This document shows positions 909 through 63,859 of a stretch of 64,000 nucleotides of DNA, one piece after another. The DNA is taken from positions 1,977,291 through 2,041,290 of the forward strand of contig NZ_LT906470.1 in assembly GCF_900187285.1 (NCBI RefSeq). Reading direction: 5' to 3'. Source of the stretch: Veillonella rodentium. Its GTDB lineage: Bacteria > Bacillota > Negativicutes > Veillonellales > Veillonellaceae. Below the pieces are notes generated by a model. The model worked only from the letters and a program-made list of their open reading frames with translations. It was not told the DNA's origin and did no database searches. A program made the translations under genes and the position numbers. The first letter of the stretch is position 1; each line of letters begins with the position of its first letter.

Positions 909-3071
909 TCACATCCCTTTCTTATCTTGTAACGTATGTAAGATTTCGTAACAATTTGCACGAACGGAAATGAAATCATCTACGCCCGCTTCGCGGTAGG
1001 TAGGCTCCAGGTCCTTCGGAGGTGCCCCTGCCAGGATAACCGTCACATTCGGCATAGTTTCCTTCAACTCCTTGGCGAGCGGCGGAACCAATTCAGGATA
1101 AGTGGCATCCGTAGAACAGATAACCACTACATCGGCGCCGCTTTCACGAGCCGCCTTCGCCGCATCAGCCGTCGTTTCATGACCGTCGTTCTTGATAACC
1201 TCGAACGCCGCCACTTCAAAGAAGCCTGTGGAGAAATCGGCGCGCGGTTTATGTTGCGGTATAGGACCCATATTCGCCAGGAATACCTTCACATTGTCCT
1301 TCGTCCGTTGTTTGTATTCTTCCGTACGCATTCTGAGCGCCTCAAATTGTTCCGTCCAGCGATGAGGCGTGATGGCTTCGATCGTTTCCGATGAGATATC
1401 GCCCGCATCTAAAGCTTTGCGGATTTGACGCATCGTCAATTTCTGCAACGCCCCCAGTTCGATAAGTCCGATCAATGCGCCCGGTTCCGTCGTACTCGCC
1501 TCCAGCGCCGCCTGAGCTTTCGCAACCGCATCAGGATCGGCTCCGGCCAGGTACGCCTCGATTTGCGCCGTCCGTTTTTGACGCAATGTATCCTGATTTT
1601 CAGGCTTAGGATCCAAGAGTTCTTCGGTCATGTTCGCATACATGTTGTTCCCTACGGCAACGTCTTTGCGGTATGCCAGGTTCTCGAACCGCTCTGCCAA
1701 TACAGCTTTCACCTGCACCTGCGGATACCCTTCCTTCAATGCGGCGACAATGCCGCCTTTCGCTTCAATAGTCTGAAATTCGGCCCAGATTTTTTCACAC
1801 AGTTCGGCCGCCAAGGTTTCCACATACCAGGAACCGCCTACAGGATCCACAGGTTGACGCAATTCGAATTCTGTCTGCAACATGACCTGAATATTACGCG
1901 CAATACGACGGGAGAAATCGTCGGATTTGCGAATCGGCTGGTCAAACGGAGATACTTCCAGGCTGTCCAAACCGCCCACAACGCCGGAGAATGCCTGTGT
2001 CGTGTTACGCAACAGATTTACATACGGATCGTATACGGTCTTTGTGAAAGCCGATGTTCTGCCGTGAACATGCACCGCGCGATCGCTTTCATCAGCACCG
2101 AAGGCCTCCATGATACGCGCCCAGATCACACGCAAAGCGCGCAATTTCGCAATTTCCATGAAGAAATTGGCCCCTAAGGAGAATGTGAACATCATGCTGT
2201 TTGCAATGGTGTGAATATCCACGTTGCGTTGCGCCAGCTGACGAACATAGCACGCCGCCGTCGCCAGAGCGTAAGCCACTTCCTGCACATCATTAGCACC
2301 GCCGTTTGCATAGGCATCGCCGGAAATAAGGACAGTCTTGAGCTGTGGCGCCTGTTCGGAAGCCCAGATCACGCTATGTGCCATTTCATCAAACGCCGTG
2401 TCCAACGACATATGCAGCGTGCCGTCCTTCACCCATACGCCGATAGGATCCGCGCCTACGAGACCTTTCAGGTCGGACGTCTGTTTTTTCGTCGCTTTCA
2501 CAGTGGCGGAAATCATCCCCAACAGGATGGCGGATGATGCACCGGCCTCGATGTAGAGAGGATTTTCTTTGAAGTTAAACCGTTCCAATAATTGCGTGCA
2601 ATCTTCAACAGTCGATAAAGATGTACCGCCCTCGCCTACAGCGGCGTCGACCTGCACATCCTGATCATGACGCGTCGCTTCATCCAGCCGGATGTTATGA
2701 ATCGTACTGCCCTTGACAATTTCGTACAGGCTCGCATGATTTGCGTCCTTCGGTAACGACTCATCTACGTATTGCGACACGCCCCAGGAATCCTTAATAT
2801 AGCCGCTCGCCTTGGTGCCTCTCAAAAATTGCCCCGCACCGGGATACACTCCCTTCGGAATTTTTTCCTGATGCAACGCTGGCGTATAAATCGGCTGTAA
2901 AGTAATTCCTTCATAGGTTTTGGTGAACATCTTTTTATGAAAGTCCCCGCCCTTTAAAGCCTTTTCAACCTCAGCCTGCCATTTTTCATACGTAGGTTTC
3001 TCAAATTCATCAAATGACACAGGAGCTAGCAGTTCACTATTTGCGGCATTTGAAGCCATTTTATCAGACAT
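909..3071 (-). CDS. mutA: Methylmalonyl-CoA mutase small subunit
   Basis: A 720-residue protein homologous to the catalytic subunit. It has the N-terminal mutase barrel (FDEFEKPTYEKWQAEVEKALKGG, LQPIYTPALHQ) and a C-terminal Rossmann-like domain from about residue 590. The cobalamin-binding DxHxxG signature expected in the large subunit is not visible there (the region reads VIKNDGHETTADAAKAARES), as is usual for the non-catalytic beta chain of heterodimeric mutases. The start ATG at 3071..3069 follows a clear AAAGGAGG site. The gene is first in the operon and is preceded by a promoter, a cobalamin riboswitch and a terminator. It stabilises the catalytic chain in the cytoplasm. Confidence 0.94.
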   Translation of the reverse strand: MSDKMASNAANSELLAPVSFDEFEKPTYEKWQAEVEKALKGGDFHKKMFTKTYEGITLQPIYTPALHQEKIPKGVYPGAGQFLRGTKASGYIKDSWGVSQYVDESLPKDANHASLYEIVKGSTIHNIRLDEATRHDQDVQVDAAVGEGGTSLSTVEDCTQLLERFNFKENPLYIEAGASSAILLGMISATVKATKKQTSDLKGLVGADPIGVWVKDGTLHMSLDTAFDEMAHSVIWASEQAPQLKTVLISGDAYANGGANDVQEVAYALATAACYVRQLAQRNVDIHTIANSMMFTFSLGANFFMEIAKLRALRVIWARIMEAFGADESDRAVHVHGRTSAFTKTVYDPYVNLLRNTTQAFSGVVGGLDSLEVSPFDQPIRKSDDFSRRIARNIQVMLQTEFELRQPVDPVGGSWYVETLAAELCEKIWAEFQTIEAKGGIVAALKEGYPQVQVKAVLAERFENLAYRKDVAVGNNMYANMTEELLDPKPENQDTLRQKRTAQIEAYLAGADPDAVAKAQAALEASTTEPGALIGLIELGALQKLTMRQIRKALDAGDISSETIEAITPHRWTEQFEALRMRTEEYKQRTKDNVKVFLANMGPIPQHKPRADFSTGFFEVAAFEVIKNDGHETTADAAKAARESGADVVVICSTDATYPELVPPLAKELKETMPNVTVILAGAPPKDLEPTYREAGVDDFISVRANCYEILHTLQDKKGM

Positions 3072-3222
3072 ATATGTGCCTCCTTTTCAACTCGAAACCA
3101 TACTGGGAACAGCGAATCCGTCATCGTACCTATAAACTGTTCGGGATGAATCCGACTCGAGCAAATCCGGCATTACCGAGTCGTAATACAAAGCTCCTAA
3201 TACGCCCCTCCCGAATGGCAAC

Positions 3223-3252
3223 AAAAAACGTGCCACCCTGGAGTGACACGTT
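3223..3252 (-). terminator. Intrinsic terminator of the cobalamin riboswitch expression platform
   Basis: On the minus strand a 10-bp stem (3243-3252 with 3227-3236; nine Watson-Crick pairs and one G-U) with a 6-nt loop is followed directly by six U residues. It lies after the B12 aptamer and about 150 nt before the mutA start, where a transcription-attenuation platform would be. Confidence 0.85.
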
Positions 3253-3342
3253 AGGTTTCTTGTTGAAAGGTACACAAAAACCTCTAAGCAGTATACCTCA
3301 ATCCCCTTCCTATCGCTCGTAGGTACATAACGGTGATTATCA

Positions 3343-3490
3343 AATAGGCAGTTCTCCTGGCTCGGGGTCATCGCCTCGCTTTCGCCTTCCCAGATTGCTC
3401 CAGTGACATTATGAAAGCAGGCTCGTCCTTACAGTGGCGGGACCGCATCGGCTTATACCGATTTCTCTATTAAGTCTTGTGACACCTATT
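3343..3490 (-). promoter_or_regulatory. Cobalamin (AdoCbl) riboswitch aptamer upstream of mutAB
   Basis: Read on the minus strand this contains hallmark conserved blocks of the cobalamin riboswitch: AAGCCGATGCGGTCCCGCC, ACTGTAAGGACGAGCCTGC, and the B12 box AGCCAGGAGAACTGCC at about 3347-3362. The ends pair as P1: AATAGG at 3485-3490 with CCTATT at 3343-3348. With the downstream hairpin at 3223-3252 this suggests transcription termination control of mutA-mutB. Family identity is secure; direction of regulation (off or on with B12) is inferred only. Confidence 0.95.
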
Positions 3491-3515
3491 CTCAATATTT
3501 TGTTGTTCTCCCTTA

Positions 3516-3545
3516 AATATAGTGTAAAACACTGCATCCAGTCAA
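3516..3545 (-). promoter_or_regulatory. Sigma-A-type promoter of the riboswitch-mutAB transcript
   Basis: Minus-strand TTGACT (3540-3545), an 18-bp spacer, then TATATT (3516-3521). It lies about 25 bp upstream of the aptamer, as expected for a riboswitch leader. Confidence 0.75.
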
Positions 3546-3681
3546 CATTTATAAAATCAATTCATAAGTACCTAATTTTATATTATATGTAAAAAGCATA
3601 CAGCATAACTAAAAGTAATATATTCGCATCGCACATGAATAATGCTATAATAAATCATATTTACCAGGAGGCATCTATTCT

Positions 3682-62903: not shown

Positions 62904-62956
62904 TAGTAAAACACCTCCTCGTCCTTATATTGTTTTACTTATACCATAACAGGGTA

Positions 62957-62985
62957 ATTATAGAGGTAAAATGTAAATTTGTCAA
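62957..62985 (-). promoter_or_regulatory. Consensus promoter of the rpmH operon
   Basis: Minus-strand TTGACA (62980-62985), exactly 17-bp spacer, TATAAT (62957-62962). Confidence 0.92.
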
Positions 62986-63058
62986 TATAATAAAGGAATT
63001 CCGCTGTGAGTTCTTATATTTCTGAAAATAATTCTACTACACATTTTATCCTGTAATT

Positions 63059-63203
63059 GATGTTACGTTTCCAGGGGGAGGAATATAGGGCTCCTTCATC
63101 GCTCCATACTAATCGTAAAGTCGCTCAAAAGGATCCTATATTCCCTCCCAAGGTAAATTCTAATGTCACCTTCAACACCACTACATAATGTAAACGTAAC
63201 ATC
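63059..63203. repeat. Nested inverted repeats left of the origin, with degenerate class I tip (copy i)
   Basis: Outer 12-bp perfect inverted repeat GATGTTACGTTT (63059-63070) with AAACGTAACATC (63192-63203). Inside, GGGAGGAATATAGG (63076-63089) pairs with CCTATATTCCCTCCC (63135-63149). The tip on the minus strand reads AGCGACTTTACG...TATGGAGCG, a diverged class I tip. Confidence 0.65.
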
Positions 63204-63373
63204 AATTTACAACAACACAAAAACTCACGATCTAAATTTTTTATATCAGACAATTTTACATTTTAATTTCTATTTGGAAAAGGTAGGGGAAAGAAGAAAC
63301 CTTCCCCCTACAAAAAAAGACATTTTCTCATTTTTAGTAAGTAACTTTTTTGAACATTTCTATAATGCATACA

Positions 63374-63522
63374 AGGTGTAGCAATTACTTTTATAGGATT
63401 GTAGATTGCATTGATTATAAATTTGCAGTTAGAGAGGACCGGATACTGATTTTTAAGCGACTTGCGCAGGATGGAGCGCAAAAATTAGTATCCGGTCCTT
63501 TTCTAAAGTAATTGCTACACCT
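63374..63522. repeat. Nested inverted repeats left of the DnaA boxes, class I element (copy h)
   Basis: Outer 18-bp perfect inverted repeat AGGTGTAGCAATTACTTT (63374-63391) with 63505-63522. Inner 20-bp stem (63435-63454 with 63480-63499, one wobble) around AGCGACTTGCGCAGGATGGAGCGC. The architecture equals that at 14118-14250, here at the origin. Confidence 0.72.
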
Positions 63523-63539
63523 CATCGTAGAAAGAAAGT

Positions 63540-63859
63540 TCAAAAAAGTTATCCACAGTTTAAATGACAAAATGCTCTTTTTTTGATACAATCGAATCAT
63601 AAATTAGGAAAAATCACAGTATATTGTAAAGTTTACATGGGTAACCCTCAAGGTTATCCACATTTTTTATCTTTTAATTCACATGTTATATAAATTCAGG
63701 TTTTATATGGCTGAATCGGCTATATATTTTCACTTATTCACAAGTAATCCACAACTTATACACAAAAACGGAACAGTTTTCCACAGCTTTCACAACAGTT
63801 ATACACATTTTTCCTAAACTATACACATTATTACCGTAGTTATACACATGAGGCACAAT
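63540..63859. other. Replication origin oriC with DnaA-box cluster
   Basis: AT-rich DNA between the divergent rpmH and dnaA genes. DnaA-box-like nonamers, all in one orientation: TTATCCACA at 63549 and 63654, TTATTCACA at 63734, TAATCCACA at 63745, TTATACACA at 63756, 63799 and 63840, TTTTCCACA at 63777 and CTATACACA at 63819. Their density just upstream of dnaA, the strand switch and the neighbouring genes identify the origin; the unwinding element is not pinned down. Confidence 0.9.

Follow-up and report, generated by a model that had tools for sequence, protein, structure and literature searches.

GTGAAAGC, an abundant octamer of Veillonella rodentium, as a predicted DNA uptake sequence

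The octamer GTGAAAGC is strongly over-represented in a 64-kb stretch of Veillonella rodentium DNA (hereafter the window), which is the last 64 kb of a single-contig genome of 2,041,290 bp (2.04 Mb). The full motif is about YKGTGAAAGY, wider than the octamer and graded. On balance, we think it probable that this motif is a DNA uptake sequence (DUS), the predicted target of a competence pilin that would favour DNA of the cell's own kind. An earlier note on the window had proposed an uptake sequence, and the proposal was supported by the genome-wide count, by the lack of replication polarity beyond guanine-cytosine (GC) skew and by conservation between species; the uptake function itself stays an inference.

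Abundance, shape and placement of the motif

The window contained 40 exact copies of GTGAAAGC, 17 on the plus and 23 on the minus strand, against a mean of 1.49 and a maximum of 5 in 100 dinucleotide-preserving shuffles. No other 8-mer of the window was as strongly over-represented under an order-3 Markov model (40 copies vs 2.98). The earlier count of at least 39 copies (23 and 16 by strand) was thus essentially right, the exact figure being 40 (23 and 17). In the whole genome, 270 forward and 246 reverse copies were found (516 in total), whereas the reversed word used as a control gave 8 and 8 (16 in total); the strong over-representation claimed for the window is accordingly a property of the genome, where the count lies far above expectation. 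The window, which adjoins the origin, is crowded even so, with 40 copies vs the 16.2 predicted from the genome mean. Motif, frame and polarity counts were based on 41 stretches amounting to 864 kb, or 42% of the genome (hereafter the sample), in which GTGAAAGC occurred 235 times vs 22.5 by base composition.

The tolerance of each place was examined in the sample. Replacing a single base at place 2 or at any of places 4-7 left 0.4- to 2.2-fold representation, and at place 3 only A was tolerated (3.3-fold). At the last place, C was enriched 11.0-fold, T 7.1-fold and A 3.6-fold. The form with T, GTGAAAGT, is a second form of the motif and occurred 17 times in the window vs 1.96 under the order-3 model. 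Three words that differ from GTGAAAGC in the first base (ATGAAAGC, TTGAAAGC and CTGAAAGC) were enriched 3.3- to 3.8-fold in the sample and numbered 36 on both strands of the window (76 copies of TGAAAGC minus 40), more than the total of about 23 given earlier for three one-base relatives. Part of this enrichment may be ordinary coding bias, TGAAAGC being enriched in the prophage too. Upstream of the octamer, T or C was preferred at -2 and T or G at -1, and the farther flanks were almost free of information. Given these flanks, the copies do not derive from a repeat family, and a dispersed family of the repetitive extragenic palindromic (REP-like) kind was rejected, as hardly any conservation was left beyond the two upstream bases.

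With 766 open reading frame calls (87.7% coding) in the sample, 132 copies were sense, 66 antisense, 35 intergenic and 2 at a gene edge, in agreement with the earlier description of copies in genes, in both orientations and different frames, and in gaps. Coding copies numbered 198, whereas 60 within-gene synonymous-codon shuffles gave 47.2 ± 6.8 (maximum 65), a 4.2-fold excess. All five stop-free frames were enriched over the shuffles, both in sense (83 vs 27.8 and 49 vs 8.2) and in antisense (40 vs 8.6, 12 vs 1.6 and 14 vs 1.0). The inverted pairs that had been noted earlier were also found: pairs of GTGAAAG within 60 bp were convergent in 13 cases, divergent in 3 and direct in 2, and 9 of the 13 convergent pairs were intergenic. 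Similar inverted DUS pairs are seen in neisserial terminators (available text of PMC2397512).

The window copies of GTGAAAGC are given below with strand and place; "intergenic" is by the open reading frame calls used.

1140-1147, minus, sense, methylmalonyl-CoA mutase gene 909-3071
1705-1712, minus, sense, gene 909-3071
2044-2051, plus, antisense, gene 909-3071
2494-2501, minus, sense, gene 909-3071
4469-4476, plus, intergenic
4774-4781, minus, sense, gene 4704-5318
6627-6634, plus, antisense, FAD-linked oxidase gene 5435-8272
8109-8116, minus, sense, gene 5435-8272
10946-10953, minus, sense, AIR carboxylase-like gene 10940-11722
12139-12146, plus, antisense, gene 11719-12477
12365-12372, minus, sense, gene 11719-12477
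13606-13613, plus, antisense, gene 12655-14019
14751-14758, minus, sense, gene 14262-15875
16254-16261, minus, antisense, lactate racemase-type gene 16147-17424
16960-16967, plus, sense, gene 16147-17424
17515-17522, plus, antisense, gene 17501-18397; adjoins GTGAAAGT at 17523-17530 (minus) to form an inverted pair, 18 bp away from the stop
18921-18928, plus, antisense, glycosyl hydrolase family 3 gene 18514-19665
19530-19537, plus, antisense, gene 18514-19665
21249-21256, minus, sense, gene 20928-21713
21849-21856, plus, intergenic; inverted pair with GTGAAAGT at 21866-21873 (minus)
23138-23145, minus, sense, P-type ATPase gene 23107-25104
23692-23699, minus, sense, gene 23107-25104
24833-24840, minus, sense, gene 23107-25104
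25053-25060, plus, antisense, gene 23107-25104
30213-30220, plus, intergenic
30413-30420, plus, antisense, methyladenine glycosylase gene 30362-31108; altered in V. denticariosi
30603-30610, plus, antisense, gene 30362-31108
32835-32842, minus, intergenic
37900-37907, minus, sense, gene 37630-38943; altered in V. denticariosi
39294-39301, minus, intergenic
40947-40954, plus, sense, gene 40362-41027
43628-43635, plus, edge of gene 43635-44798
43707-43714, minus, sense, gene 43635-44798
44113-44120, minus, sense, gene 43635-44798; altered in V. denticariosi
48941-48948, plus, antisense, parB gene 48850-49782; altered in V. denticariosi
54849-54856, minus, intergenic
56183-56190, minus, sense, rsmG/gidB gene 55889-56638
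60302-60309, minus, intergenic; inverted pair with GTGAAAGT at 60253-60260 (plus)
62019-62026, minus, intergenic; inverted pair with GTGAAAGT at 62010-62017 (plus)
63786-63793, minus, intergenic
17523-62017, span in which all 17 window copies of GTGAAAGT, the second form, lie

Three perfect parS-type sites (TGTTTCACGTGAAACA) lie at 50219-50234, 51116-51131 and 52134-52149 of the window, in or beside the parB and parA genes (48850-49782 and 49766-50545), which are followed by rsmG, mnmG, mnmE and jag-type genes; this stretch is the origin region. As a separate observation, the metal-type P-type ATPase gene 23107-25104 is whole here and in V. denticariosi, and three other genomes (G007, G009 and G012) hold only high-identity fragments of it, one with a stop, at an apparently matching place.

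Conservation, spread among relatives and foreign DNA

The nearest named genome is that of V. denticariosi JCM 15641, whose PilT is 98% identical to that of V. rodentium. At alignable GTGAAAGC sites (95.0% identity between the two species), 31 of 35 were identical compared with 1071 of 1587 anagram words (p = 0.009). In the reverse direction, 31 of the 33 V. denticariosi sites were identical in V. rodentium vs 1071 of 1557 anagrams (p = 0.0009). The octamer is therefore conserved beyond its anagram controls between these two species; conservation in alignments was among the checks that the earlier note had suggested. With V. parvula only 8 sites could be aligned, too few for a conclusion, and 2 were identical (controls 63 of 475). 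The octamer was also the top 8-mer in the V. denticariosi sample and ranked sixth in loci of the V. parvula group, which are not independent because they are mostly one locus from seven genomes.

Counts of GTGAAAGY were then compared among 28 genomes of the Veillonellaceae. The motif occurred 658-896 times in 13 of 14 Veillonella genomes and 676-851 times in all six genomes of a second genus (g2). The nine remaining genomes were poor in it (127-215 copies) and close to the level of the control, namely G004 with 215, the seven genomes of genus g3 with 140-194 and genus g4 with 127. Relative to the reversed control, the count was 6.7-fold in V. rodentium and 1.3-fold in G004, in which no convincing alternative uptake word stood out. 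The exact octamer numbered 548 in V. denticariosi, 547 in V. atypica, 430 in V. tobetsuensis and 398 in V. caviae, and 19-123 in 16 genomes from other families of the order. In a tree of PilB, PilT, PilC and PilM from 23 genomes of the family and two outgroups, G004 was the lowest branch of Veillonella. The last motif place was looser in genus g2 (A 4.5-fold, C 4.8-fold and T 5.7-fold), whose form of the motif is perhaps a dialect.

Phage DNA gave a different picture from that of the chromosome. In the prophage of V. rodentium, GTGAAAGC occurred once vs 0.85 expected in 33.4 kb, the lower end of the prophage being unmapped. When pieces of the four IMG/VR contigs nearest to it among 54 viral-contig loci, whose hosts are not established, were added (98.8 kb in all), there were 3 copies of GTGAAAGC vs 2.4 and 10 of GTGAAAGY vs 6.7. 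The octamer at chance in phage DNA implies either that the cell does not impose this enrichment on all the DNA that it replicates or that phage residence has been too short. A DNA search for phage records near the prophage gave no match, and protein matches were below 60% identity and were not used. Apart from these subjects, the sample of genome G014 (L051-L060) contained about 23 copies of a long repeat that includes CACACTACTCTC, perhaps an array of clustered regularly interspaced short palindromic repeats (CRISPR).

Density gradient, replication polarity and alternative readings

The density of GTGAAAGC in the V. rodentium genome falls from origin to terminus, and this gradient is a new observation. 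Per 10 kb, 5.77 copies were found within 100 kb of the origin (0.58 per kb), then 3.56, 2.33 and 2.14, and 1.25 beyond 800 kb, a drop of about 4.6-fold. Over 44 pieces, density was correlated with distance from the origin (Spearman -0.68, p = 4e-7), whereas that of anagram words was not (-0.09). Within genes, the effect of distance after GC correction was z -3.2 for GTGAAAGC and z -1.8 for GTGAAAGY, the effect of GC content being larger; the latter value suggests that the gradient is partly gene content. In genome G012, whose origin we take to be at the contig start, the first 300 kb (14% of the genome) contain at least 48 of 170 copies of TGTGAAAGC; of the 77 forward copies, 8 fell in the last 300 kb and were thus uncrowded there, so that the gradient in G012 is one-sided. 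As the cause, we conjecture an effect of gene dosage on molecular drive; the placement of core genes near the origin is a plain alternative.

Such a pattern would also be expected if GTGAAAGC were the site of a protein of chromosome organisation or cell division, similar to Noc or SlmA, dense near the origin and sparse near the terminus. Sites of Noc, SlmA and ParB, like those of the FtsK-orienting polar sequences (KOPS), are chromosome-wide and follow an origin-terminus pattern as GTGAAAGC does, its in-gene distance effect outlasts GC correction, and GTGAAA is common to the motif and the half-site of parS. However, Noc, SlmA and ParB sites are palindromic, whereas the motif has YK upstream; the parS-like AC preceded 1 of 235 copies and divergent GTGAAAG pairs were only the three counted above, on which grounds a palindromic site of this class was rejected. 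Hundreds of sites within genes, in every permitted frame, are moreover far beyond the use such systems make of theirs, and the distance effect for GTGAAAGY was slight after GC correction. We consider a site of this kind unlikely, although it is the strongest of the alternatives.

Less likely still is that GTGAAAGC is the Chi recombination hotspot of a Veillonella AddAB enzyme. Chi sites are short, non-palindromic, over-represented words, as this octamer is. Two neighbouring genes with PDDEXK_1 nuclease domains (open frames of 1169 and 1302 aa) were found; their sizes and positions led us to read them as AddB and AddA. Known Chi words, GCTGGTGG in Escherichia coli and GCGGTGGT in Caulobacter (available text of PMC5443536), are strand-polar, unlike GTGAAAGC. 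In the sample, 151 of 235 copies (64.3%) were on the leading strand and 84 on the lagging strand, where base composition predicted 63.4% and anagram words 61.6%. The same test on six 50-kb stretches of E. coli K-12, with replichores placed where we take them to be, gave 52 of 72 Chi sites on the leading strand and 20 on the lagging strand (expected 55.5%, p = 0.004). The polarity odds beyond GC skew were thus 1.04 for GTGAAAGC vs 2.08 for E. coli Chi. Furthermore, with codon-shuffled controls in leading-strand genes, antisense copies were enriched 5.1-fold and sense copies 3.7-fold, the lagging orientation being equally enriched. The weak strand bias reported earlier is consequently no stronger than GC skew accounts for, which speaks against both Chi and KOPS. 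KOPS show strict polarity and reach their highest density near dif, the reverse of the gradient observed here; a KOPS role was rejected, as near-total polarity toward the terminus is absent and density falls in that direction.

Another word, GATGYGG, was over-represented in the sample with a leading-strand bias (in genes on the leading strand, 369 copies were sense and 78 antisense). In lagging-strand genes it followed gene sense (19 sense, 12 antisense), and for this reason its bias may be coding. As a Chi candidate in place of GTGAAAGC it was not used as evidence, coding bias being as likely as a Chi role.

It is very improbable that the octamer is the target of a conserved methyltransferase, an epigenetic mark kept for regulation. 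Strict inner bases with tolerant ends and wide conservation in the genus would suit such a mark, but restriction recognition sites are usually avoided rather than enriched, and the sites lie mainly in genes, a poor fit to regulation.

Least credible is an origin of the excess as a side effect of codon use, mutation bias or a family of dispersed repeats. Words sharing TGAAAG were enriched as well: in genes, over codon shuffling, TGAAAGC was enriched 1.7-fold after A, 2.3-fold after T and 3.1-fold after C, and in the prophage about 4-fold (18 copies vs 4.3 expected), by which the tolerance of the motif at place 1 and its outer places may partly be coding bias; the tripeptides VKA (159 vs 92.5) and AFT (73 vs 45.0) were over-used. 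Nevertheless, the 4.2-fold excess in all five frames survived synonymous shuffling, the exact octamer was at chance in the prophage and related phage pieces, and the flanks carried nearly no information, so that codon or mutation bias was rejected for the exact octamer and this explanation is largely refuted.

Competence machinery and the uptake reading

Matches to a PilT-like protein and to ComEC were found in all 40 genomes searched (V. rodentium and 39 relatives). The 23 loci compared largely share one gene order, in which smaller proteins that begin with a hydrophobic stretch come after PilB, PilT, PilC, a prepilin and a prepilin peptidase; the V. rodentium locus is broken by the prophage, and a few small genes are uncalled in some loci. 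Among nine locus proteins of V. denticariosi, Pfam recognised only the prepilin and the peptidase, leaving seven of the nine after PilC unmatched, and we infer the names minor pilin and PilM, PilN and PilO from place and size. A separate ComP-like prepilin was not found with the N_methyl model, which gave one prepilin in 27 of 28 genomes of the family and two in the other.

According to the available text of Knapp et al. (2017, PMC5397411), V. parvula is naturally competent and requires a type IV pilus locus. Genomic DNA was preferred to polymerase chain reaction (PCR) product, and PCR product to plasmid, the cause being left unexplained. The strain was SKV38. As a side observation, V. denticariosi JCM 15641 (L117) has a pilus locus of the competence type, where that text reports none.

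We placed their constructs on the G012 genome (not SKV38), on which all 11 competence-locus primers tried matched exactly, and counted the motif in their flanks. The flanks of the large deletion contained no GTGAAAGC in the short-arm and one (L207:6388) in the long-arm construct. Those of the small deletion contained none in either; as one printed primer is a duplicate, the long-arm flanks were here delimited by the outermost primers on the list. GTGAAAGT occurred one to four times in the flanks of each construct. By the efficiencies of PMC5397411, the worst construct had no GTGAAAGC and the fewest homologous bases. The comparison neither proves nor refutes the uptake reading.

Several points weigh against an uptake sequence, beside the prophage enrichment of TGAAAGC given above. 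The enrichment of GTGAAAGC is modest, about 10-fold, and its density is 0.25 per kb (0.43 for GTGAAAGY), which does not reach the usual, though not defining, 1 per kb quoted for the uptake sequences of Neisseria and Haemophilus (PMC5397411). Knapp et al. themselves doubted a DUS: uptake was poor for PCR products that matched the chromosome exactly, the bias did not reach that of Neisseria, a chromosomal construct of about 2 kb ought to carry a DUS at 1 per kb, and no word of at least 10 bp present 100 times was found (PMC5397411). Their argument is weakened, however, because the exact octamer occurs just once per 4-5 kb. On our placement, however, efficiency did not track the number of motifs: the two small-deletion constructs, which lack GTGAAAGC, were about as efficient as the one with a copy. 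The machinery does not predict the motif, a test that failed because motif-poor relatives have the same pilus genes and ComEC; the pilus-locus genes are alike in motif-rich and motif-poor species, and no receptor candidate emerged from them. In genus g2, the ratio of GTGAAAGY to its reversed control is just 2.5-2.8. The pilus tree, whose deep nodes are weak (0.68-0.86), does not join this genus to Veillonella as its sister, which would require two gains or several losses of the motif. Finally, the prophage splits the sole clear prepilin gene of V. rodentium (L109:1-13720 = G000:C1:1220001-1233720, and L021). The eight prophage proteins scanned are an integrase, a repressor, SSB, a terminase, a head-tail adaptor, a major head protein, a tail protein and an endolysin. 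This gene is intact in V. denticariosi (L117:12301-12747), and competence of the V. rodentium strain is likely off while the prophage stays there. The arrangement is reminiscent of the comK prophage of Listeria.

Known uptake sequences offer the closest likeness. The uptake signal sequence (USS) of the Pasteurellaceae is of the AAGTGCGGT type. It lies in genes in both orientations, one being commoner in frame (available text of PMC2346458), comparable to the sense excess found here; GTGAAAGC differs in having no AT-rich flank pattern and a lower density. Neisseriaceae DUS, including AT-DUS and other dialects, are short, non-palindromic words that number from hundreds to thousands per genome, within and between genes and on either strand; related species share them, acquired DNA has few of them, and they sometimes form inverted pairs and extend across a clade with small changes of consensus, in diderm hosts with a type IV competence pilus (available parts of PMC2397512 and PMC3630211). 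All of this resembles the present case, apart from the other sequence, about a quarter of the density, a wider tolerance at the ends and a diderm Firmicute host. The DUS receptor is ComP, a minor type IV pilin, of which the Veillonellaceae genomes gave no separate example; the USS receptor is unproven, ComN being predicted (available text of PMC12616744). The same text names uptake sequences for two families only. As judged from the search results listed, no uptake word for Veillonella or the Negativicutes was found named in the open-access papers searched; the text available of PMC8359418 has a single occurrence of the string GTGAAAGC, and that of PMC12187724 a single one of its complement.

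If GTGAAAGC is an uptake sequence, the type IV pilus would capture double-stranded DNA at the motif, ComEC would take one strand in and RecA would recombine it. Copies would then accumulate through many generations of biased uptake (molecular drive, to which selection for recombination among kin may have added), and growing donors might shed more origin-proximal DNA, conjecturally giving rise to part of the density gradient. Possible, but in our view rather doubtful as a whole, is the wider proposal of a third, independent uptake system, the first in Firmicutes and outside the Neisseriaceae and Pasteurellaceae, with a g2 dialect and a gradient that is a fossil of molecular drive through the dosage of shed DNA.

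Should the uptake reading be true, this would be the first uptake tag reported beyond two families of Proteobacteria, and such tags would seem to arise where an outer membrane meets a competence pilus, the third case being a diderm Firmicute. It could account for the way V. parvula favours genomic DNA, would make a common oral genus easier to work with genetically, and would provide a new system in which drive and selection can be tested against each other as causes of such tags.

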